Below are positions 7,743 to 36,262 of a stretch of DNA of 38,602 nt, in pieces; within the stretch, counting starts at the first letter, position 1, and every line of letters begins with the position of its first letter. The position numbers and the translations under genes were made by a program. The stretch is from contig JACQHB010000008.1 in the NCBI GenBank assembly GCA_016199215.1, forward strand, positions 1-38,602, written 5' to 3'. The DNA comes from Candidatus Doudnabacteria bacterium. GTDB taxonomy: Bacteria; Patescibacteriota; Doudnabacteria; UBA920; O2-02-FULL-48-8. Under the pieces are notes generated by a model. That model was not told the DNA's origin, ran no database searches, and saw nothing but the letters and a program-made list of their open reading frames with translations.

Positions 7743-9635
7743 CTATGCGGAAGCTTGGGATAGTCCTTTGCCTGCCAGAATCTGGGATTCTTTGTTGATT
7801 AACTTGTGTTTTGGCAAAATGTCCAAAACCATGGACTCAAACTCATCCCTCTCAATAGTTTCCACCTCTATCAAACGGTGAGCGATTTTGTCCAGATATT
7901 TGCGATATTTTTTAAGCACCTCAACGGAAGTTTTATAAGCCCGGTCTATGAATCCCGAAACTTCTTCGTCGATCTTGGCCGCGACTTTTTCAGAATAATT
8001 CTTCTGTTCAGCAATTTCCCTCCCCAAAAAAATCATTTCATGAGTTTCGCCAAAGGTCATTGGACCCAAATTTTCCGACATACCGTAAGCGGTCACCAGT
8101 TTGCGCGCCAAATTGGTCGCGATTTTAAGATCATTGGACGCCCCGGTGGTCAGTTCGTTGAAGATCATTTTCTCCGTGGCATACCCGCCGAGAGAAACAG
8201 CCAGCTCCGCCAAAAATTCGGACTTCGAATGAAGATTCCGATCTTCGGTCGGAAGCTTCATGGTATAACCAGCGGCTCTGCCGCGGGAAACAATCGAGAC
8301 TTTATGCACCGGGTCAGCATGCGGCATAACCGAAGCCACCAGCGCGTGCCCTGCTTCATGCCAAGCCGCGATTTCTTTTTCCTGTTTGGAAAGCAGGTGG
8401 CTTTTCCGCTCAGGACCAAGCATAACTTTCTCAATGGCGGCAATCAGGTCAAGCTGGCCGATTTTGTGCTGGTTTTTGCGCGCGGCAAGAATCGCTCCCT
8501 CGTTCATCAAATTGGAAATGTCAGCGCCAGAAAAACCCGGAGTTCGTTCCGCGATGCTGCGAAGATTTACTTCACCTGCCAGGGGCTTGCCTTTGGCATG
8601 AACCTTTAAAATAGCTTCGCGGTCAGCAATATCAGGCAAATCAAGAATCACCTGGCGGTCAAACCTGCCAGGGCGAAGCAGAGCCGGATCCAGGACATCA
8701 GGCCTGTTGGTGGCAGCGATCACAATCACATTGGTCTCGGATTCAAATCCATCCATTTCAACTAAAATCTGGTTTAATGTCTGCTCGCGCTCATCATGCG
8801 ATCCGCCCAAACCAGCGCCGCGCTGGCGGCCGACCGCGTCGATTTCATCAATAAAGACAATGCAAGGCGCGTTTCTTTTTGCCCGCTTAAACAAATCCCG
8901 GACGCGGGACGCGCCAACGCCGACAAACATTTCCACAAATTCAGACCCGGAGATATGGAAAAACGGAACATTAGCTTCCCCGGCAATGGCCCGGGCAACC
9001 AAAGTCTTGCCCACTCCAGGAGGGCCCAGGAGCAATACGCCTCTTGGAATACGCGCGCCCAAAGAGAAAAACTTTTGCGGGAAGCGCAAAAATTCGACAA
9101 TCTCCTTCAATTCTTCTTTTGCCTCTTTCACTCCGGCCACGTCAGAAAAAGTAATCCGTTTTCTGCGGTCTGACTGTTCAAGAAGCTTCGCGCCTGATTG
9201 GCCAAACGACATTGCCCGATTGTTTGAACCGGCAACCTGGCGCATAAGAAACCATATAAATCCGGCAATCAAAATAAATGGGATCAAAAATGGAAGGATG
9301 GTTGAAATAATAAACGAAGAAGATCCTCCGCCCTTGACATCAATCTGGATCTCTTGAATTTTGGTTGAATCAACTCCGTAATTTTTCAAAGTTTCGGAAA
9401 AAGCGACTTCTTCTTCCTTGCTGGAAAATTGTTTGCCGCCGTCTTTAAGATATGCGGTTAATGAATCGCCGGAAATCTCAATCTTGCTGATCTGACCGGC
9501 GTTGGCTTCGTCCGCGATTTGGGAAATCGGAACCGTGGGGATATCTTTATCTGATGTATTAAAAAAACTGAAAGCAGCCGCTACCAAAATAAAGATGGCG
9601 AAAATAATGAGTATATTCTTGAAAAGTTTATTCAT
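7743..9635 (-). CDS. ftsH: ATP-dependent zinc metalloprotease FtsH
   Basis: [38 protein letters not shown]; likely start MNKLFKN (ORF open to 9674). Confidence 0.96.
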
Positions 9636-9675
9636 AGACTTACAAATTTTAAATGATTTTGCCCTTTCTGTCAAT

Positions 9676-9760
9676 TGGTGGCCAGGGAGGGATTCGAACC
9701 CTCAATCCTTTCGGAACGTGATCCTAAGTCACGCGCGTATGCCAGTTCCGCCACCTGGCC
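9676..9760 (-). tRNA. tRNA-Leu (TAG), CCA encoded
   Basis: Long variable arm; anticodon loop CTTAGGA; GAGGGTTCGAATCCCTC; terminal ACCA. Confidence 0.93.
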
Positions 9761-9786: not shown

Positions 9787-9815
9787 TTGACAAAAAGGCA
9801 AAAATCTGCTATCAT
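9787..9815 (+). promoter_or_regulatory. sigma70-type promoter for the GC-rich five-gene unit
   Basis: TTGACA - 17 nt - TATCAT. Confidence 0.75.
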
Positions 9816-9837
9816 TGACGGTCACAATTGTCTATAA

Positions 9838-10014
9838 TTTCAATCCCTTAAACCTAAGTCTTTAACCTTACTTTAAAGATTAGAAACTTGGGCTTAACCG
9901 GCAACCGCCGGAAGAGACTAAGGACGTTAGGAAGCTCCTGGCGTCTGATCTTTGAAAACTCAAATTTACAAGAAGAACAAAGTGTTCTCTTTTTGCCGCA
10001 CGAGGAGGTGCTGC
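9838..10014 (+). promoter_or_regulatory. long structured 5' leader with boxA-like element and attenuator-like hairpin
   Basis: CCGGCAACCGCCGG hairpin; TGATCTTTGAAAACT (9946-9960) resembles rrn boxA; AGAACA-AAG-TGTTCT followed by CTTTTT at 9974-9994. Confidence 0.45.
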
Positions 10015-11904
10015 ATGGCGGAAGGTGTTATCAAGTCGCTTCTCGAAAGGTTCGGATTCATCAAGCCCAGAGATGGGACTGATGACGTTCACTTCCGCCG
10101 TGATCAAGCGCCCCGCGATTGCCGCGAGGGAGATCACGTGGAGTACGACCCGGAAGACGGTCCGAAAGGGCCGCGAGTCCGGGGCAACATTCGGATCATC
10201 CAGCGCTCCCAGCGCCAAGGTGGTCAACAACAACAAGGGCAACAAGGCCAGCACGACCAGCGGAACCTGCACGTGCAGTGGGTGCCGGGAGAACCGGAAC
10301 TGCGGGAATACGACGGCGCACAGCCGACGGATCCCAAAGCGGTTCTCCTGCGAGTTCCTATGACAGTAATTCTCCGCGAGGGGAACCGCTTCAAGCAGGG
10401 AGCCAAAATCCGGCTCAAGGTCTGGGCTAGCGATGTTACCCAGCCCCTGCCGGAACCAGAAACCACTGACAAAGGTGAAGCCTACTTCGTGGCGTTCCTT
10501 TCGGAAACCGCCACGGACGCCGACTTCGCCGCCTTCGTGCACATAGCAAACCAGCTGGTCGCCACGTCGTCGTTCCATTGGCGGCTTGACGAACACCAGG
10601 TCAAACCGAGGGTCAAGATCGCCCGCCACATCAAAGTCAAGGCGGTTGGCACTGACGGCGACTGGACCTTGGTCCGCATCTACACCGCCACCTCAAAGGA
10701 GGCGGATGCGGATGGGATTAAGTCCGGGGTCATCGTCGGTTCAGTTCGCGAAGTCGAGGTCGAAGGCGTTGGTACCAAGGGAAGTCAAGTCAAGATCGAA
10801 ACCGAGACCAATGGGTACGTGACCAAGAAAGTGCGCTTCACCAAGCCTCACAAGGGCGAGGTGGCGTTTGCGCTTGAGCACGACCTGGCGACCGAGGATT
10901 CATTAGAGATCGAGACCAAGGAAGCCGAAGTCAAGACCGTTCGCCACATCCGCGCCCGGAATATCGGGACGGATAGCACTTGGACATCAGTGCGCGTCAT
11001 TCTGCAAGTCGCGGACAAGCCCGAAGCTGAAAAGCTGGAGGCCGATATCCGCGCCGAATCAGACGACGCCATTGAGATCGAAAGTGTCAGCGGGGGCGGG
11101 AACTCGATCAAAGTCAAGATCGACGGCGGCGAGAAGATCATCCGGGTCAAGCGCGCTTCAGTCGGTAAGGCTGAGGTTACGTTTCGCCTGGACAGCAATA
11201 CCGCGGTCGAAAGCGATCCGATCAAAATCGAGACTAAGGCGGCCGAGACCAAACAGGTGCGTTACATCCGCGCCCAAAAAATCGGGACGGATAGCACCTG
11301 GACCACGATTCGCATACTCACGCTCACGTCAAATAAGCCTAATAGCGAAATGCTGGAAGGCGATGTGCTGGCGGAATGTGGGTCCGAAATCGAGGTGGAA
11401 GGTGCGGCGACCAAGGGTCACTCGGTGGGAGTCAAAATCGACAACGGGTCCAAACTGGTCCGGATCAAGCTTGCGAAAGCCGGCAAGGCGGACGTAATCT
11501 TCCGGTCCAAAGAGGACATCCGAGTCGAGAGCGAGCCCGTTGAGATCGAGACCAAAGCGGCCAAGACCTGCAAGAGGATCAAGGCTGAATTGGTTCTCGG
11601 ACGCCCCGGGTCCCGCAACACGCTCAAGGTCGAAACCTTTGCCGAAGTCGGCGACAACGCTGACAAAATTTCGGCCGGGGTCGAGATCGAGAGCGCTGAC
11701 GAAATCGTAGTCGAAGTCGACGGCACGGAGCATCGTGGCAAGCTGGTTCGTTTCAGCACCGACACCACCGGTACGAAAGTGGTGAAGATTGTCTTCGTGG
11801 CTCCGGTTCATTCCGGCCACGTCAATCTGTTCTCCTCGCTGAATCGGTCAGTCGCTGCTACGAACGTTTTCGTCCGTCATCCGGCAACCGAATCGCGGCC
11901 CTAA
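10015..11904 (+). CDS. cold-shock-domain protein with C-terminal tandem repeats
   Basis: GAGGAGG SD before ATG10015; N-terminal CSD (GVIKSLLERFGFIKP...DDVHFRRDQ...GDHVEYDPEDGPKGPRVRGNI), Gln-rich linker, then ~106-aa repeats. Confidence 0.8.
   Translation: MAEGVIKSLLERFGFIKPRDGTDDVHFRRDQAPRDCREGDHVEYDPEDGPKGPRVRGNIRIIQRSQRQGGQQQQGQQGQHDQRNLHVQWVPGEPELREYDGAQPTDPKAVLLRVPMTVILREGNRFKQGAKIRLKVWASDVTQPLPEPETTDKGEAYFVAFLSETATDADFAAFVHIANQLVATSSFHWRLDEHQVKPRVKIARHIKVKAVGTDGDWTLVRIYTATSKEADADGIKSGVIVGSVREVEVEGVGTKGSQVKIETETNGYVTKKVRFTKPHKGEVAFALEHDLATEDSLEIETKEAEVKTVRHIRARNIGTDSTWTSVRVILQVADKPEAEKLEADIRAESDDAIEIESVSGGGNSIKVKIDGGEKIIRVKRASVGKAEVTFRLDSNTAVESDPIKIETKAAETKQVRYIRAQKIGTDSTWTTIRILTLTSNKPNSEMLEGDVLAECGSEIEVEGAATKGHSVGVKIDNGSKLVRIKLAKAGKADVIFRSKEDIRVESEPVEIETKAAKTCKRIKAELVLGRPGSRNTLKVETFAEVGDNADKISAGVEIESADEIVVEVDGTEHRGKLVRFSTDTTGTKVVKIVFVAPVHSGHVNLFSSLNRSVAATNVFVRHPATESRP
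10624..11880 (+). repeat. four tandem ~106-aa (318-bp) repeat modules within the CSD protein
   Basis: RHIKVKAVGTDGDWT / RHIRARNIGTDSTWT / RYIRAQKIGTDSTWT / KRIKAELVLGRPGS begin near 10624, 10942, 11260 and 11570. Confidence 0.8.
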
Positions 11905-11927
11905 AGCCGCACAACGAGGAGAACAAC

Positions 11928-12521
11928 ATGCCATTCTGGCAATCAGTCGTGGCGGCACTAGAGTGGATCCATAAAGTGATCGGCCCTCTGGCAGACATGG
12001 CGGACCTGCACCGCCTGTTTGAAAACGCGGGGAACGCTATCAAAAAGCTCCCCCTTGACATGCAGGCCAAGGTCCGCAAGGGCGACGCGTTCCGGGAGTT
12101 CCGGGACGCGATGTCCGAGCTGGAACTCCACGAGAGGGAGGCAGTCCGCGAGCTTCTTGCGCGACTGCGGACCGACCAGGCCAAGCAAGAGCACTTCATC
12201 CTCAAGGCCGCGGCGCAAGGAGGCCTGGACAATCCGGAAGGAAGCAAAAAGTTCCTGAAGGATCTGGCCACCATGTCCACGGACGAGGCGCTCCTGTACC
12301 TTGAGGACGTCGATGCTACGCAGCCGTCGGTCACGCTGACCGCGGCCAAAAACAGCGTCACCAAAACCGCTGAGGTGCTAGGCGACGCGGCAAAGGCAGT
12401 CGGTAGTGCGATTAAGAAGGGCGAAGCGGCCGTCTCGGCCGACATCGACAACAGCGGATTGAGCAAGATACTGGACAATTCGATTGCCGACCTCGAGAAG
12501 AAACTCGGCATCAAGCCGTAA
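11928..12521 (+). CDS. hypothetical helical protein
   Basis: GAGGAG SD; 197-aa ORF in same GC-rich unit. Confidence 0.75.
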   Translation: MPFWQSVVAALEWIHKVIGPLADMADLHRLFENAGNAIKKLPLDMQAKVRKGDAFREFRDAMSELELHEREAVRELLARLRTDQAKQEHFILKAAAQGGLDNPEGSKKFLKDLATMSTDEALLYLEDVDATQPSVTLTAAKNSVTKTAEVLGDAAKAVGSAIKKGEAAVSADIDNSGLSKILDNSIADLEKKLGIKP

Positions 12522-12534
12522 CCAGGAGAAGACA

Positions 12535-13506
12535 ATGGCATACATTGCGATATTGTTCGCGTCGTCGCTCGTTCTCCTGATTGGCGGCATTCGTCGCTAC
12601 GTACTTCGGGCTCTCTACTGGAGCTTGCTCCGCGTGCTCCTACTGTATCAGCAGATCACTGGCAGGGCACCAGCTCCATGGATTACTCGAGTCGTTACCT
12701 GGATACGCAACGCAGCAAGTGCAGCCACCGGCCCGATCGTGAGTTTTCTGCGATGGCTGGGGGTGACCCTAGCTGCGGTAGTGATCATCAACATCGTAGC
12801 CATCGGCTATGGCAACGGCTGGGTCCTTTGGGTTGAAGCAGTGGTTTTGGGAACCATCTGCTACATCTTCTTCTCCATCTCCCGGTTGTGGGACGGCAAG
12901 GCATTCGCCATACCGACTCTCGTGTTTTACGGTATGGCGGTGCTTGGCCTTCTGTTCCCCGACTGGGTGCGGGTCAACCCGCGGCTCTTTGTCATCGGAA
13001 CGCTCTTGATTCCGATGATTAAAGTGGCTACGGTGTTGATCAACCAACGCTGGATCAAGGCAGTGGCAGTCACGAGTCTCGTGATCATTGCGGTAGTCGC
13101 CGGAGCCTACGTTGCCTACCAGCAGGTGGGCTACGTCCAGCTGAAGGCAGGGCGCACAGCGTTTGTCAACAACACGATCAAGGCCCAGGCTAACGCCGAA
13201 TGGGAAGTCCATCCAGAGGCCGAGCGCAAGCTTAGCCAGACGGTTCGCAGCGCGCAACAGACGCTGCTTGCCGAGATGGACAAGGACAACCCCGACCCGA
13301 ACGTCGCGGCCAAACAGTTTATCAAGCTCAATGGGCAGAAGCGAGTAATGGGGGTGATGCACAGCATCAGCCCTGCTCCGGAAGCTCCAAGGGCTAGAAG
13401 GTCGATCGGGCTCAACGAGGAGGCCAAACCGGCGATCATTGCCGGCCTGATTTTCGCCGCACTGGCCGCCGCGTTAATCTTCAAATCGCGAAAAACCGCA
13501 AGCTAG
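12535..13506 (+). CDS. hypothetical multi-pass membrane protein
   Basis: CAGGAG SD before ATG12535; several N-terminal TM helices, soluble segment, C-terminal TM (AIIAGLIFAALAAALIF) and basic tail. Confidence 0.75.
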   Translation: MAYIAILFASSLVLLIGGIRRYVLRALYWSLLRVLLLYQQITGRAPAPWITRVVTWIRNAASAATGPIVSFLRWLGVTLAAVVIINIVAIGYGNGWVLWVEAVVLGTICYIFFSISRLWDGKAFAIPTLVFYGMAVLGLLFPDWVRVNPRLFVIGTLLIPMIKVATVLINQRWIKAVAVTSLVIIAVVAGAYVAYQQVGYVQLKAGRTAFVNNTIKAQANAEWEVHPEAERKLSQTVRSAQQTLLAEMDKDNPDPNVAAKQFIKLNGQKRVMGVMHSISPAPEAPRARRSIGLNEEAKPAIIAGLIFAALAAALIFKSRKTAS

Positions 13507-13519
13507 CGAGGAGGACTTC

Positions 13520-14359
13520 ATGAACACTGTCGTAAAGGCTATCGTGATCTCTTCGCTGGCGCTTGCGGGATTCCTGGTCTTTGTGTGGTATGGGATTCCA
13601 GCGATGCTGCCGGCAGCCGAAGCCTCAATCCGTACCATCAACCGCGCCGCAGACGACCACGAGAGAATCAAGGCGTCTGGTGCCGAACAAAAACTTGCGG
13701 AGTACGTAGGCGGCGATGATCAAACATTCGGTGATCGGCTCAAGCAGGTTGGATCAGAGGCAGGTGCCCGACGTCTGATTCGCCATGCGGCATTGGGTCG
13801 CGGCTATGCGCTGCTTCCACGGCTTGCCCCCAAGCCAATCCTCACCGAGGCAAACAAATGGGTGAGTTTCAACATCCCGGTCGGGGAACCGATCGACGTC
13901 GCTGTCTGGGGAAAATTCTGCCACGGCTATGAGGATTGCCGTGATCCGGACGGCAAGCCGTCCCTCCCCCTGCCAGGACGTTATGAGGGGATGAAGACTG
14001 TCCTTGAGTGGGAAGCACAGGCAACTCCAGTTCCGGAACGGTACGACCCAACTCTCATACCAGCCAACTTCCGGGAACTGGTTGGAGTTGAGTCTAAGCC
14101 GATCCCCGGACAATACGGCGAAGCGCTGGGCCGGCTGTGTGACGCTGTATTCTGCGGGCCCGGATTCCCCATCAGGTTCCAAGCCCAGATTCTGCCCCCA
14201 AGCGACGGCCGCAAAACTTTCCTGGAATTCTCCAGGAACGGGTTCGTAGCCTATATGTTCGGAGGCTACGACCCGACAGTGGACACGGCCGACGGGAAAT
14301 TTATGTTCAGGGTGATCTTCCCCAACGGGACGATCATCGAACCATCATCATCAAATTAG
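13520..14359 (+). CDS. hypothetical membrane-anchored protein
   Basis: GAGGAGG SD; N-terminal TM/signal anchor then ~250-aa domain. Confidence 0.75.
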   Translation: MNTVVKAIVISSLALAGFLVFVWYGIPAMLPAAEASIRTINRAADDHERIKASGAEQKLAEYVGGDDQTFGDRLKQVGSEAGARRLIRHAALGRGYALLPRLAPKPILTEANKWVSFNIPVGEPIDVAVWGKFCHGYEDCRDPDGKPSLPLPGRYEGMKTVLEWEAQATPVPERYDPTLIPANFRELVGVESKPIPGQYGEALGRLCDAVFCGPGFPIRFQAQILPPSDGRKTFLEFSRNGFVAYMFGGYDPTVDTADGKFMFRVIFPNGTIIEPSSSN

Positions 14360-14372
14360 TAGAGGAGGAACA

Positions 14373-14465
14373 AGGGTCCAGGATTAACGTATGCGGTCTT
14401 GGACAGACGACAAGGGTGCTTGCACACACGCAGCGCCCTTTTGTCTTGCCCAAAGCCTTGACCCT
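14373..14465 (+). terminator. structured 3' element / likely terminator of the four-gene unit
   Basis: Outer stem AGGGTCCAGG/CCTTGACCCT (1 mismatch) enclosing GACAAGGGTGC...GCGCCCTTTTGTC. Confidence 0.5.
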
Positions 14466-14472
14466 GCAATAC

Positions 14473-14596
14473 AACATCGATGCTTTTGCTTTTGAAATGG
14501 TTTTTATTAATTAACTTTTATTAAATAACCTGCGTTTAAAAATTACAGAAAATTATTTCTTTTCGCAAAAGCAACCAAAAACCATTTATCGATGTT
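14473..14596. repeat. interrupted inverted repeat, MITE-like
   Basis: AACATCGAT(13 nt)AAATGGTTTTT ... AAAAACCATTTATCGATGTT with AT-rich interior. Confidence 0.45.
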
Positions 14597-14607
14597 GATA
14601 TACAGGG

Positions 14608-14636
14608 TTGACAAATTGCCTAATTTTTGCTATACT
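14608..14636 (+). promoter_or_regulatory. sigma70-type promoter of the STN-domain gene
   Basis: TTGACA - 17 nt - TATACT. Confidence 0.85.
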
Positions 14637-14674
14637 TAGCTGTTTCTTAACTACCTTTTCGAGTGTAGCGAGAA

Positions 14675-14696
14675 ATCTCGGTGTTAACACAGAGAT
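14675..14696. promoter_or_regulatory. dyad-symmetric element in the leader (operator or hairpin)
   Basis: ATCTC-G-GTGTTAACAC-A-GAGAT. Confidence 0.5.
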
Positions 14697-14758
14697 CTCT
14701 CACTTCGTTCGAGATGGAATCCAAACCAGATCGCAACAACGCCAAGGAGGCATAAGTC

Positions 14759-15844
14759 ATGAAGCGAAACACTATCGTTTTCGCAACGCTCGCGTTCCTC
14801 ACGATCGCCGTCGTCGTGTCCGCTCAAGGTGTCTTCAGCACCGAGGTCGGACCGCTGACCTACGATCAGCCTACCAAGGTCGGCAAGATCATCGATGATC
14901 TGTCGCAGCAGTTTGGATTCGGCGTGCGCGTCGAGGGCGTGCCTCCGGTGGATCGGACCTACACGGGAACGATCCCGAAAATGTCGCTGGCGAAAGCCAT
15001 CGACATCCTCATGGAGACCGTCAATTCCACGGCGAGTATGTCCAACAACCTGCTGGTCATCTACGCCCCCGGCCTCAAGCCGCCAGTGGAAGAGTTGGCT
15101 CAACAGCCAGCGAGATCCGCAATCACTGCGGATTCAGATGATGCCCGGGTGGAAGAAATCAAGCGCCGATACAGTCAGACCGCCGGGCAAGATCTGCCTG
15201 TGGACCTACAGAACCAGATGTCGACCGAGCTGTACCGCGCCGAACAGGCTCGGCTGCAGACTGCGGTTGCAGTGACTCCGCAGCAGGCAAGGGTCGGGCA
15301 AGACCTCCCTGTTGATGTCCAAAATGTGCTTGGTCGAGCCTACTACACAGGCATGTCCGGTGGCTTCTACGATCCCTACGGCTACTACTTCTTGGCGTTT
15401 GACCGCTGCGTGGCAAACCCCCGCCACCGCGACTGCCGTATGGGGAAACTCAAACTCAACGGCGAGGGAGCTCACTTCCTCAGTGAGTTCCTGCGCGTAT
15501 CCTTCGGGGGCGACGGCCTGCTGTCAAAGGTAGACATCTACGTCCAACCGATCTTCCCTGACGGAACCGAGGGCCCCGTCGACAACCTGGGACCGGCCAG
15601 CAAGCGCAACAACATATTCAATAAGGCCCTTCGCCTCCCCGTCGGACGGTATCGTGTAAGGTTCGTGCTCGTCGAACGCAATCTCCTGCTCTATGATGAT
15701 ACCACCCAGGTCTGGTCAGAGTGGGACACGAAAGGTGAACCAACCATTCTGCAAGTGGATAGCAACCACTTCAAGAACGCCCCTTTCCTCGTCGCCGTGG
15801 AAAGGGATCTGCAGAGCAAGAAGGCGGCAAAGGTGCTGAGGTAA
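14759..15844 (+). CDS. secreted protein with secretin/TonB short N-terminal (STN)-like domain
   Basis: AAGGAGG SD; signal peptide; VGKIIDDLSQQFGFGVRVEGVPPVDRTYTGTIPKMSLAKAIDILMETVNSTASMSNNLLVIYA. Confidence 0.7.
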   Translation: MKRNTIVFATLAFLTIAVVVSAQGVFSTEVGPLTYDQPTKVGKIIDDLSQQFGFGVRVEGVPPVDRTYTGTIPKMSLAKAIDILMETVNSTASMSNNLLVIYAPGLKPPVEELAQQPARSAITADSDDARVEEIKRRYSQTAGQDLPVDLQNQMSTELYRAEQARLQTAVAVTPQQARVGQDLPVDVQNVLGRAYYTGMSGGFYDPYGYYFLAFDRCVANPRHRDCRMGKLKLNGEGAHFLSEFLRVSFGGDGLLSKVDIYVQPIFPDGTEGPVDNLGPASKRNNIFNKALRLPVGRYRVRFVLVERNLLLYDDTTQVWSEWDTKGEPTILQVDSNHFKNAPFLVAVERDLQSKKAAKVLR

Positions 15845-15882
15845 TATCGAGCATCAGGCAGCGCTTCATGATGGTAAATACA

Positions 15883-15903
15883 ACTCCGACGCGAGGTCGG
15901 AGT
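15883..15903 (+). other. hairpin upstream of the terminator
   Basis: ACTCCGAC-GCGAG-GTCGGAGT. Confidence 0.6.
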
Positions 15904-15912
15904 ACAAAACGA

Positions 15913-15958
15913 AAAGCCACGCTTTGGACTCATCATCCAAGCGCGGCTCTTTGTTTTA
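15913..15958 (+). terminator. intrinsic terminator of the STN-domain gene
   Basis: AAAGCCACGCTTTGGA-CTCATCA-TCCAAGCGCGGCTCTTTGTTTT. Confidence 0.75.
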
Positions 15959-15963
15959 TTGAG

Positions 15964-16338
15964 TTAAACGTTTTGGACCCAACCCTGTCGACCAAGCGCG
16001 TTCATTATTACGATTATAATCACGTATGACAGGATAATGATAATAAGACCGACAATTGCGTTTATTATTGCCTTTTTCCCGGCTTCAGCGGCTTCCTGAT
16101 TTCCAGCGGAAGTAATATAGCGGAATCCGCCGTAGATTAAATACGCCACTGCCAAGATCCCTACAATAGCTAAAGCTATATTTATTATTTTGGTTACCCA
16201 ACCAGTGGCTGTATCTTGATTACTGCCTGGTAGTCCGGTTGGTTGATTTGGGTAATTTAACCCGGGTGTTGCCGCAAACGCGGTCAGAGCAAAAGCAAGC
16301 ACAACAATACAACCAATGAAAATTTGCAATTTTTTCAT
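15964..16338 (-). CDS. VirB2/TrbC-like pilin-family membrane protein
   Basis: Signal peptide plus YGGFRYITSAGNQEAAEAGKKAIINAIVGLIIIILSYVI. Confidence 0.75.
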   Translation of the reverse strand: MKKLQIFIGCIVVLAFALTAFAATPGLNYPNQPTGLPGSNQDTATGWVTKIINIALAIVGILAVAYLIYGGFRYITSAGNQEAAEAGKKAIINAIVGLIIIILSYVIIIVIMNALGRQGWVQNV

Positions 16339-16355
16339 TTTTTACAAATCCTTTC

Positions 16356-16736
16356 TTATACTCCCTGTCCAGTCAAAGCGTTGGAGATTACTCTTACAAT
16401 CACGAATGAAAGAATGATCACCACTATACCTATAATTGAGTTGAGGATGATCTTCTTTGCCTTTTCCGCTGTTTCTTCATTGCCCGCGGAAGTGATATAG
16501 CGGAACCCGCCGATGATCAGGAACAGCACAGCGATCAATCCGGCTATAGCCAAAGCAATGTTGATAATCTTAAGGATGAACCCGGAAGCGGTAGAATCTT
16601 GCGTGGTGTTACCGGGAAGACCGGTTCCGCCGGAATTCGGCGGTTGGAATTGCGCCCCTGCAACTAAAGGCAGGGCGACAACAAGCATAATTACCGCCAA
16701 AGTAACAATGTGCCCTTTTTTTGCTAATTTATTCAT
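16356..16736 (-). CDS. VirB2/TrbC-like pilin-family membrane protein
   Basis: IGGFRYITSAGNEETAEKAKKIILNSIIGIVVIILSFVIV. Confidence 0.75.
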   Translation of the reverse strand: MNKLAKKGHIVTLAVIMLVVALPLVAGAQFQPPNSGGTGLPGNTTQDSTASGFILKIINIALAIAGLIAVLFLIIGGFRYITSAGNEETAEKAKKIILNSIIGIVVIILSFVIVRVISNALTGQGV

Positions 16737-16773
16737 ATTTTTTACTCCTTACTTTTTGTTTCCCTTTTTGCAA

Positions 16774-16790
16774 GGAACGTCTGACGTTCC
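16774..16790. repeat. short odd palindrome
   Basis: GGAACGTC-T-GACGTTCC. Confidence 0.6.
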
Positions 16791-16804
16791 CAAGGGTCGA
16801 CCTT

Positions 16805-17188
16805 TTAAACGCTGCCCTTTAAGGCATTAATTATGACAACTATTACGATATAGGAAAGAATAACTATAATCAATCCCATTATAGCATGCGTCATTGTTCT
16901 TTTTCCAGATTCAGCTTGTTCTTGATCGCCCTGCGAGGTCAAATACTTAACTGCGCCATAAATCAAGAGGGCTAAGGATAATGTTGAAACAATGCCGACA
17001 CCCATCTCTATCAAAAAATGCAAAAGTCCTGAAAAGTTATTCCTAGCATCGCCCAAATCAACAAAATAACTTGGAGCGGGATTGCAGACAGTTGGGTCGC
17101 TTTCGCTGTAGTTGCAGTCTACGGCGAAAGCTGTCTGTAAGAAGAAAGCCCCGAATAAAAGAAGCACAAGAAAACAAAGTTTATTCAT
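16805..17188 (-). CDS. VirB2/TrbC-like pilin-family membrane protein
   Basis: LIYGAVKYLTSQGDQEQAESGKRTMTHAIMGLIIVILSYIVIV. Confidence 0.75.
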   Translation of the reverse strand: MNKLCFLVLLLFGAFFLQTAFAVDCNYSESDPTVCNPAPSYFVDLGDARNNFSGLLHFLIEMGVGIVSTLSLALLIYGAVKYLTSQGDQEQAESGKRTMTHAIMGLIIVILSYIVIVVIINALKGSV

Positions 17189-17194
17189 ATTTTT

Positions 17195-17860
17195 TTATTT
17201 TGGTTGTCCTACGAAAGTTGCAGTCGCCCGCACAAGAACAAACGCCAAAGCTATTACCAGCAGGCCCACTATCGCCCACTGCAAAGTCTCCTTTGCGCTA
17301 GTGGCTTGTTCTTGATCTCCCCTGGCAGTTACGTACTTAAAACCTCCGAACACAATCATTCCCATCGCTATCAAGCTGGCAACTTCCAAAAATCCGGTTA
17401 ACATTCCAAGCAACAAATCCAAGAAAGAATTATATCTTACAGGATTCCAGACAAACTGTCCCCAGCCATAATTATCGGTTGCTGAAGGCCCTTCCCTTCG
17501 AACTCCTATATAATTAGCGGTTGCAGCGATCAAAACAAAAACTAATAGTGATAATGCAAACCCTAAAATCGACCATTTCAATGATTCTCGCGCCTTAGTC
17601 AGATCTTCAGCATGGCCTTGAGAAATGACCATCCTGAAGCCGCTGAACACCACCATTATTATCGCTGTTAAACCAAAAAAAGTAGAAAAAACCACTATTA
17701 ACCGTTCTACAAAAGTAGGCAGGCTATTACCGGAAATATTCTGTAACGGGTTGCAGAGTTGGTTGCTGTTGGGATCAGCCGGGCAAATCTCCGCAGCAGA
17801 AACATAAAAGATTGGAAGGAGCAGCAAAAATATTAAAATCAGATACTTCAATTGCGTCAT
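17195..17860 (-). CDS. pilin-like membrane protein with duplicated module
   Basis: Two copies of the pattern: FSGFRMVISQGHAEDLTKARESLKWSILGFALSLLVFVL and FGGFKYVTARGDQEQATSAKETLQWAIVGLLVIALAFVL. Confidence 0.75.
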   Translation of the reverse strand: MTQLKYLILIFLLLLPIFYVSAAEICPADPNSNQLCNPLQNISGNSLPTFVERLIVVFSTFFGLTAIIMVVFSGFRMVISQGHAEDLTKARESLKWSILGFALSLLVFVLIAATANYIGVRREGPSATDNYGWGQFVWNPVRYNSFLDLLLGMLTGFLEVASLIAMGMIVFGGFKYVTARGDQEQATSAKETLQWAIVGLLVIALAFVLVRATATFVGQPK

Positions 17861-18255
17861 CTGGGTAAAAGATCAAACGCATCAAATAAAGCGCCTGTAC
17901 GGGGCATCCCGCTGCCGCTGACAAGAGAAACAATCAGGTTTAAAAGCAGAAAAGCAGTCATTACCAGAAAAAAACCGATGATGGCGTTGGAGAGAGTGGA
18001 CTTGGCTTCGTTTATTTTTTCTGAATTTCCCCCCGCAGTAACCATCCCCCATGCCGACCACAGAAGAAAAAGAGTAGCTACCAACCAAGCCCAACTCAAC
18101 AAAAAGTTGATTATTCGGGCAACCGTATTTATAAGGATGGGGAGAGTGCAGGGATCCTGGCTCTGTCCTCCACAAGGTACAATCGCCGCGCGAGTAAAAT
18201 CAGCGTAGAACAACATTAAAATTACAGCTGTTACAATTTTGTTTTTTGCTTTCAT
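17857..18255 (-). CDS. VirB2/TrbC-like pilin-family membrane protein
   Basis: WSAWGMVTAGGNSEKINEAKSTLSNAIIGFFLVMTAFLLL. Confidence 0.7.
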   Translation of the reverse strand: MKAKNKIVTAVILMLFYADFTRAAIVPCGGQSQDPCTLPILINTVARIINFLLSWAWLVATLFLLWSAWGMVTAGGNSEKINEAKSTLSNAIIGFFLVMTAFLLLNLIVSLVSGSGMPRTGALFDAFDLLPR

Positions 18256-18304: not shown

Positions 18305-19612
18305 CTATTTTTGCAGGATTAAATTAACTTGCGCCACGGCGTTCCGCACCGCCTCCTCCGGACGGAACGAGCGCAGAACCACGTCATCAATCATTTTTAA
18401 GAAAATGCCTTCATACAGCGAAGCGTCTTTTTTGTAAACCGACTTGGCGGTTAAGGCTGACTCGGCAAAAACCCCTAAATTTTCATCGCTAATCTGCTCG
18501 GAAATAATATCGCGGCGGGCCGAGGGCAAACTGTGCTTGCTGTAATATTTCTTCTGGCTTTCTTTGCCAGACAAAAACGCCAAAAAATTCCACGCCTCGT
18601 CCGCGTTCGGCGAAAGTTTGTAAACCGCCTCGCCCCAGTAGTTGGCAAAGTTGACTTTATCCCCCAGTTCGGTGGTCTGCGGAACCGGGGCGATTGCGAA
18701 ATTCAGGTTGGGAGAGCGATTCTCAATCGTCGGCTTCATGTAATAATACGACAGCATCATGGCAAGCTTCCCTTGGGCAAACGAGTCCACGCTGAAATCA
18801 GTCTTGGCATTCCAGGTATAAGTTTTTTTGGCCGGGTCAGAAAATTGGGTATAAAATTCCAAAGCCTTGGCTCCAGGATTAAAACTTTCGGTTGAGCCTT
18901 GATCAAAAATGCTTTGGTCAAAAGTGGCCATGTTCAGACTGTCTGAATAAAATTTGGTTCCGTTTTGGAGCATGAGCAAAGTCAGGATGTCCACGGCCCG
19001 GTTAACGTTGCTTGAGGCGCCAAAAGCCACCCCGGATTTGGAGAAGGTTCCTGGTTTTGATTGGACCGTAATTTTTTGCACATCATCTATAAGCTGCGGC
19101 CAGGTCTTGGGCGGCTGAGCGATCCCAGCGGAGCCCAAAATATCCTTGTTGTAATAAAGCGCCAAGGTGTCGATGGAAAGCGGAATGGCATAAACCCTGC
19201 CGTCTTTAACAAAATCCGAGCTTACCACATCCACATAAGTATCCATAAAAGCCCTCTGCCCAATCAACTTGTCAGGCGCGGGGGCCATTTTTTCTATGTG
19301 TTTGGCAAGCCAGTCATTGTGGATGGTAAAAATATCAGGCCCCTTTCCCGAGGCAATGGCATTCAACAACTCCTGCTCATAATCATTGATGTCTTTTTTG
19401 ACATACTTGATCCTGACATTCTTATGGGCGGACTGGTAATCACCAATCAATTCCGACAAGTTTTCCGGATCTTCGAAAGTCTTCCACCAAGTAAGCTCCA
19501 CTTCTTTGTTCGCTACTTTTTTAGGGCCGCCGCTAAAAGCAAAGGCCGCCCCCAAAATAATTATCAGGAACAAAATCGCCCCGCCTATAATATAGTATTT
19601 TTTGTTTTCCAT
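18305..19612 (-). CDS. ABC transporter extracellular (sugar) solute-binding protein
   Basis: N-terminal TM; VELTWWKTFEDPENLSELIGDYQ, GPDIFTIHNDWL, YAIPLSIDTLALYYNKD. Confidence 0.88.
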   Translation of the reverse strand: MENKKYYIIGGAILFLIIILGAAFAFSGGPKKVANKEVELTWWKTFEDPENLSELIGDYQSAHKNVRIKYVKKDINDYEQELLNAIASGKGPDIFTIHNDWLAKHIEKMAPAPDKLIGQRAFMDTYVDVVSSDFVKDGRVYAIPLSIDTLALYYNKDILGSAGIAQPPKTWPQLIDDVQKITVQSKPGTFSKSGVAFGASSNVNRAVDILTLLMLQNGTKFYSDSLNMATFDQSIFDQGSTESFNPGAKALEFYTQFSDPAKKTYTWNAKTDFSVDSFAQGKLAMMLSYYYMKPTIENRSPNLNFAIAPVPQTTELGDKVNFANYWGEAVYKLSPNADEAWNFLAFLSGKESQKKYYSKHSLPSARRDIISEQISDENLGVFAESALTAKSVYKKDASLYEGIFLKMIDDVVLRSFRPEEAVRNAVAQVNLILQK

Positions 19613-35638: not shown

Positions 35639-36262
35639 ATGAAATCAATTGTCATAGCAATAGTCGCGGTTTTGTCCCCTAGCCTCATCGCGGCGCAGGA
35701 TTTCGACCCGCAAGTCCGTCTGCTCATGCACCATCATATCGTTGAGCCCACACACAAGTTCGGGGTCGCGACCTGGACCATCGTGCCTGACCTCACTGAC
35801 CGCAACCTAACTAGTCCCAATCAAAAACGCCTGCTGTTTGTGGCTGGTCTGCTGGTCCGCTACAACACGACCAATGACTACAACTGGCTCGAGATTATGC
35901 CAGGGGTCATGCTGGAAACCAACCCGGCCACGCGGGTAACCAAAACCCATCCCCTGCTTAACACCAGAGTATATCTTAAATGGCCAAAGGTCGATTTGTA
36001 TCTGGAGAACCACGTCTGGGATGATCGCCTGATATTCAGCGCTTTCGCTACTAGGCCATTCAAAATTGGGCAGTTAACCGGCCGCTTCGGAGGTGAAAGC
36101 GAAGCAATCGTTGGGCTTAAACCAGAAGTGGCAGATGTTTTCCTGATTGGACCCCGGCTAAGTCTACGCCTTAAACCATCCTGGCTGAACATAGCCAACG
36201 CGGTGTACCTGAACCAAGATGCAGAGTTGATTTGGCGGACCTACATCAAAATCGGCAAATAA
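35639..36262 (+). CDS. secreted beta-strand-rich protein of unknown function
   Basis: AAAGGAGG SD; signal peptide MKSIVIAIVAVLSPSLIAAQ; alternating amphipathic strands. Confidence 0.65.
   Translation: MKSIVIAIVAVLSPSLIAAQDFDPQVRLLMHHHIVEPTHKFGVATWTIVPDLTDRNLTSPNQKRLLFVAGLLVRYNTTNDYNWLEIMPGVMLETNPATRVTKTHPLLNTRVYLKWPKVDLYLENHVWDDRLIFSAFATRPFKIGQLTGRFGGESEAIVGLKPEVADVFLIGPRLSLRLKPSWLNIANAVYLNQDAELIWRTYIKIGK

Follow-up and report, generated by a model that had tools for sequence, protein, structure and literature searches.

A GC-rich gene cassette at a fixed site beside the type IV secretion pilin array of Doudnabacteria

The window analysed here, a stretch of 38,602 nucleotides, corresponds to contig C6 in a draft genome (G000; 520,915 bases, 79% complete, GC 45.1%) of Candidatus Doudnabacteria, a poorly known lineage of very small bacteria that presumably live attached to other microbes. 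Five plus-strand genes fill positions 10015-15844, with tRNA-Leu and ftsH on one side and an array of type IV secretion system (T4SS) pilin genes on the other, all on the other strand, and their composition is visibly unlike that of the rest of the genome. This raises the question of whether the unit was recently taken up from elsewhere or belongs to this place. We find the unit to be the local allele of a cassette that is held at a fixed site family-wide, with looser versions further out, and not an island of recent acquisition. The cassette consists of two short, separately promoted and terminated units whose orientation is opposite to that of the pilin array.

A cassette held at one site across the family

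The site was surveyed from the gene of a solute-binding-like protein (SBP; 18305-19612, minus strand), an anchor present in 47 of the 50 genomes of the order, and up to about 18 kb downstream of it was read in G009, G010 and 20 further relatives; genes in the relatives were called with a simple in-house caller, from one genome per species. All 11 intact intervals of the family (G000, G001, G003, G004 and G007-G013) hold a GC-rich, oppositely oriented cassette with strong Shine-Dalgarno (SD) sequences, and in the twelfth family genome (G002) it is partly visible, up to the contig end. In the family, the PF18895 pilin array borders the site on one side and tRNA-Leu(tag)/FtsH on the other. In the window these borders are the array of VirB2-like pilin genes that adjoins the cassette (15964-18255, minus strand; six PF18895 matches within the window), tRNA-Leu(tag) (9676-9760, minus strand), whose 5′ end faces the cassette, and the gene of an FtsH-like protease (7743-9674, minus strand), which is likewise conserved in relatives. 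Counted from the far end, the usual order is a gene with a cold-shock domain (CSD) or RG/K-rich start followed by an Ig-like part, then a helical, a multi-transmembrane, an anchored-secreted and an STN-like product, the last with a signal peptide and a separate promoter of its own. The cassettes of G008 and G013 have three genes.

Further out, a cassette is present in four genomes of other families (G015, G016, G019 and G023) and absent from six (G029, G033, G040, G044, G045 and G046), in which the pilins run straight to tRNA-Leu and FtsH; tRNA-Leu(tag) and, usually, tRNA-Val(gac) border full and empty sites alike. Among 80 further loci, those of Uhrbacteria, Kuenenbacteria and Moranbacteria include cassettes that follow a pilin array but have other genes and not always a GC offset, and in some lineages the cassette adjoins the array although the gene after the array differs. 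The sole genome of the same genus, G006, is uninformative about the site because the anchor gene and its region are missing from it. The preliminary description had named two outcomes that would speak against a real unit, a chimeric join and relatives with the genes scattered, and neither was seen: independent assemblies show both junctions, and a chimeric join is excluded because the frame of pilins, cassette, tRNA-Leu(tag) and FtsH recurs in all intact family relatives.

Additional genes were observed at this site. The gap between the two units is an apparent insertion hot spot: G002, G004 and G007 (loci L054, L056 and L081) have small AT-rich genes there, GIY-YIG-like in G002 and, as judged by eye, small toxin-antitoxin-like pairs in G004 and G007. 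In G011, G004 and G012 (L057, L056 and L060) a GC-rich gene of opposite strand, encoding 467-537 aa with a DEHG motif, lies between the cassette and tRNA-Leu; the G011 copy matched no defence family.

Composition, regulation and exchange of alleles

The five genes have a GC of 0.574-0.598 and a GC at third codon positions (GC3) of 0.63-0.77, compared with gene means of 0.454 and 0.49 for the genome, and each is preceded by an SD. Along the window, GC is 0.56-0.60 at 10-14 kb and 0.52-0.58 at 14.5-16 kb (genome, 0.45), which places the unit at about the 99th percentile of the 1-kb windows of the genome. Codon usage sets it apart from ribosomal-protein and core genes alike: the fraction of Leu codons that are CTC is 0.29 in the unit versus 0.07 in those two sets, and that of Phe codons that are TTC is 0.81 versus 0.33 in ribosomal-protein genes and 0.30 in core genes. 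The raised GC and strong SDs reported in the preliminary description, which had asked for this sliding analysis of GC and codon usage, thus hold for all five genes, as does the lack of an integrase or transposase, none being found in profile searches of the five products. A repeat scan showed no direct repeats of att type bounding the unit, so that among the hallmarks of an island atypical composition is present, and an integrase, att sites and patchy presence are not. The same description had placed units at 818 and 35639 in one set with this one; their SDs are strong, but their GC is only 0.497 and 0.516, and they are weaker cases.

The offset is a regular property of the cassette. Its GC exceeds that of the flanking core by 0.131 +/- 0.028, with a positive difference in each of the 12 family genomes, and cassette and core values are correlated over these genomes (r 0.62, P 0.03; for GC3, r 0.72, P 0.008) and over a wider set of 33 loci (r 0.71; offset positive in 30), all computed without phylogenetic correction. 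An offset that persists and tracks the core speaks for a maintained class of genes or steady exchange among related genomes, not for a one-off donor. Across the whole genome an SD with at least 5 matches precedes 91-100% of genes with a GC of at least 0.54 and 6-21% of those below 0.51, a contrast partly sharpened by the simple gene caller, which rewards SDs in start choice. A weaker version appears in a 400-kb sample of G010 (80% of genes with a GC of at least 0.56 versus 10-19% below 0.53). Raised GC and a strong SD therefore appear to mark a second gene class of the genome, of about 40 genes, and in this form the earlier suggestion that the unit belongs to a wider set is borne out. High expression was considered as the source of the codon bias and rejected: it is insufficient alone because ribosomal-protein genes share the codon usage of the core, not that of the unit. 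The class may be kept up by constant exchange within a patescibacterial gene pool.

Some other GC-rich genes of this genome were noted in passing. Five orphans (C3:20980, C4:46471, C4:47482, C8:33843 and C12:22545) have almost the same palindromic promoter (TTGACAATTTTGTCAAAAAGGAGTATAAT-like), which suggests one regulon. At C8:76830-81412, where GC is higher still (0.54-0.66), a gene cluster encodes, as judged by eye, a MoxR-like AAA ATPase and a CoxE-like VWA protein. At 35639-36262 the window encodes a secreted 207-aa protein that shows 70% identity to its counterparts in G006 and in G011, more than the SBP shares with that of G011 (58-59%). In G011 the gene lies about as far from the pilin locus as here, and it is possibly also positionally conserved or exchanged.

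Promoters were claimed at 9787 and 14608, and both are confirmed. That of unit 1 (9787-9815, plus strand) reads TTGACA-17-TATCAT with an extended −10 (TGC), and that of unit 2 (14608-14636, plus strand) reads TTGACA-17-TATACT, also with an extended −10; each matches 11 of 12 consensus bases. The unit 1 promoter has a near-consensus counterpart at the same place in G004, G007, G009, G011, G012, G013 and G015, including a stretch of 42 nt at 88% identity with G012. Within the 11 family genomes, a near-consensus promoter precedes the first cassette gene in most and the STN-like gene in all, there mostly with an extended −10 (TGCTA). Since such promoters are kept at the same places, regulation is better conserved than the products. 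Terminator hairpins, also claimed before, fold at about 14416-14455 for unit 1 (−20 kcal/mol, z −5.0 versus shuffles) and about 15907-15961 for unit 2 (−21.4 kcal/mol, z −5.7), both on the plus strand; these calls rest on the two individual folds because a generic terminator scan showed no excess over shuffles. No Rfam RNA was found in the leaders at the gathering threshold.

Between the two units lies an AT-rich hairpin element of about 150 nt (14458-14609), which was observed again at C1:1336-1482 and C5:10207-10355 of the same genome and in relatives at L054:13861-14012 and L058:3779-3921. Its arms (ACCCxGTAATACAACwTCGATGCTTTTGC ... TTATCGAwGTTGATATACxGGGT) covary, with both-sided changes at 13 pairs among the five copies. 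In the window its 3′ end abuts the −35 of the unit 2 promoter, and a partial copy on C8 (at about 63.9 kb) also lies immediately 5′ of a TTGACA promoter. The element has no Rfam match at the gathering threshold.

The products, in contrast to the position and the promoters, diverge fast. Between genera SBP is 56-63% identical, and the cassette proteins reach 12-31% in our alignments. Furthermore, the nearest relatives conflict within one cassette: in G000, genes 1-3 are nearest G010, gene 4 G011 and gene 5 G009, and in G004 gene 1 is nearest G012 and the STN gene G002. In G011, genes 2 and 3 have their nearest relatives in G015 (80 and 92 bits), a member of another family, whereas the SBP places G011 with G004 by a wide margin (608 versus 422 bits). 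These assignments use low bit scores without trees, and unequal rates could mimic part of the mosaic pattern. Because the proteins are barely alignable between genera and their nearest relatives conflict, the pattern is best read as exchange of cassette alleles between lineages at the fixed site. Transfer, proposed earlier as horizontal acquisition, would then matter mainly in this form, and not as a one-off foreign insertion, the same site being occupied family-wide.

The five products and a possible role at the envelope

Gene 1 (10015-11904, plus strand; 629 aa, no signal peptide) starts at ATG 10015 and not at TTG 9952. Its N-terminus matches a CSD profile (E 1.8e-5; 24.9 bits, below the Pfam gathering cut-off of 27), and self-comparison reveals internal repeats. 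It had been described as a CSD-repeat protein; the cold-shock-like part stands, but it is confined to the N-terminus, and the remainder looks like Ig-like repeats. In relatives the N-terminus of this protein is a CSD or else basic and RG/K-rich, CSD-like starts occurring also in G001, G007, G010 and G023. Gene 2 (11928-12521, plus strand; 197 aa) encodes a soluble, probably helical protein that is 45% identical to the product of the G010 gene in the same position, and gene 3 (12535-13506, plus strand; 323 aa) a polytopic membrane protein with about seven predicted transmembrane segments, one of them C-terminal. Profile searches, including Pfam, matched no family to either. VirB6/TrbL was tried as an identity for gene 3 and rejected, as neither it nor its relatives match the profile and the TrbL/VirB6 gene of this genome lies at C5:21158-21697.

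Gene 4 (13520-14359, plus strand; 279 aa) combines an N-terminal membrane anchor with a probably extracellular C-terminal domain that has the recurrent pattern ALIGR-C....PF-IG-...-NG-...GGY. We take this pattern to resemble LecA/PA-IL-type lectins, as a lead only; the comparison gave just the LecA-like PllA at a weak E of 0.52, and the AlphaFold model, built from 9 sequences, was poor. Gene 5 (14759-15844, plus strand; 361 aa) has a predicted signal peptide, an STN/N0-type domain, a linker and a C-terminal beta domain. In the local structure model its residues ~30-105 adopt the N0/STN fold (predicted local distance difference test score, ~70-83), and Foldseek relates this part to N0 domains with a probability of 0.99-1.00 at a modest best E of 1.7e-3, the neighbours being N0 domains from secretins, the Legionella T4SS protein DotD and PupR/FecR signalling domains. 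Profile searches found no secretin channel domain in gene 5. None of the five proteins matches a T4SS family, and among anti-phage defence families genes 2-5 have no match and gene 1 has just a CSD profile at E 0.009.

The cassette is best regarded as accessory, because the VirB4, VirB3/PrgI and VirB6 genes of the genome lie elsewhere: a VirB4-like ATPase is encoded at C5:27315-28229, on another contig, with a PrgI/VirB3-like gene beside it that was read from the sequence by eye. T4SS and pilins are essential for the epibiotic growth of S. epibionticum, the one system in which this was tested (PMC10633639), as is likewise stated in the available part of PMC12102498. According to that part, patescibacterial T4SS are widespread, their pilin arrays are hypervariable, VirB8 homologues are few and PrgB-type adhesins were not found; the genomic context studied there is that of the genes around virB4, and a cassette beyond the pilin array is without mention in it.

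Based on these observations, we propose, at a probability of roughly one half, that the cassette is an undescribed, reshuffled envelope module that acts together with the T4SS pilus and may take part in host contact. Its products would form an envelope-associated accessory complex of the pilus, with the nucleic-acid-binding-like gene 1 protein and the helical gene 2 protein in the cytoplasm beneath the polytopic gene 3 protein, and with the anchored domain of gene 4 and the secreted N0/STN protein of gene 5 outside. Such a complex might tune or recognise contact with a partner cell, and fast divergence with allele exchange would agree with selection exerted by partners or phages as these change. 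The envelope link suggested in the preliminary description is thus retained as probable, for a GC-rich and separately transcribed system, but not for one peculiar to this genome. It is more doubtful whether the cassette is the host-contact layer of the pilus itself, taking the adhesin or periplasmic-bridge roles for which PrgB and VirB8 were not found, with host range re-tooled by exchange at the fixed site under retained promoters and a coding style that stays distinctly GC-rich; we would advance this only tentatively. Little is known of how patescibacteria recognise their partners and hold on to them, and the cassette yields a short list of genes that are plausible candidates for host-contact parts, from a locus that in one family is always beside the pilin array, encodes membrane and secreted products and turns over by exchange.

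Several observations weigh against the envelope module. Its tie to the T4SS is positional only, and several relatives have pilin arrays without a cassette; genes 1 and 2 lack a secretion signal; of the structure models, only that of the N0 domain is good; and genera share little homology, some positions having only place and gene type in common.

Alternative readings and known systems

A recently acquired island from a GC-rich donor would account for GC, codon usage and SD strength sharply unlike those of core and ribosomal-protein genes and for the neighbouring tRNA. However, the same site and gene types recur in all intact family genomes, cassette GC tracks the core GC of each host, and the unit abuts the 5′ end of the tRNA with no integrase or att-type repeats seen, which leaves this account highly improbable. 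A genome with an AT-richer core of few SDs and a GC-rich, SD-strong class would mislead naive GC-based island finders into calling recent transfer, even though the site is conserved and the offset is kept from genus to genus. Descent from a virus or plasmid deserves hardly any credence: the PHROG baseplate-hub match of gene 5 (3.2e-5, N0 region) is weak, N0/STN folds are common to secretion systems and baseplates alike, gene 3 is unmatched in phage records and gene 4 in plasmid records, and the position of the cassette is fixed.

The two other alternatives concern function, and we consider each unlikely. An intracellular signalling or stress/defence module related to the TerY-P kinase-VWA-phosphatase set could stand beside the pilins by chance; the G001 and G010 cassettes do add protein kinase, VWA, Zn-ribbon and PP2C-like phosphatase genes (in G010, E 1.1e-17 for the kinase, 1.7e-13 for VWA and 3.5e-4 for the phosphatase), which suggests intracellular signalling and so also counts against an envelope module, gene 1 begins with a CSD-like domain, and fast turnover is typical of defence loci. 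Yet only two of the 12 family genomes have this set, membrane or secreted proteins make up three of the five products, and the defence-family searches gave nothing beyond the CSD of gene 1. Alternatively, the site might be a neutral landing place between two convergent conserved blocks, where unrelated surface genes gather with no functional tie to the pilus. The small AT-rich insertions and the empty sites in several relatives would suit this, but gene order, gene types, promoters and orientation recur, and cassettes adjoin the pilin array even where the gene after the array differs.

The patescibacterial T4SS with VirB2 arrays (PMC12102498; PMC10633639) belongs to the same group of organisms, and a PF18895 array adjoins the cassette, but no cassette protein matches a T4SS family. 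Gene 5 shares the modelled fold of residues 30-105 with secretin N0/STN, DotD (Dot/Icm) and FecR/PupR domains; it lacks, however, the secretin channel, the TonB receptor and the sigma-regulator part, and another beta domain follows. The TerY-P triad consists of VWA, PP2C and protein kinase, and genes of these kinds join the cassette in G001 and G010, but the triad is not in the cassette of the window and Ter proteins were not found. Variable surface loci at fixed sites are known for capsules, pilins and tail fibres. The cassette differs from them in having no recognisable capsule, fimbrial or phage genes, and in its constant GC offset and conserved promoters; it shares with them a fixed position, conserved flanks, divergent exchanged alleles and membrane or secreted products.

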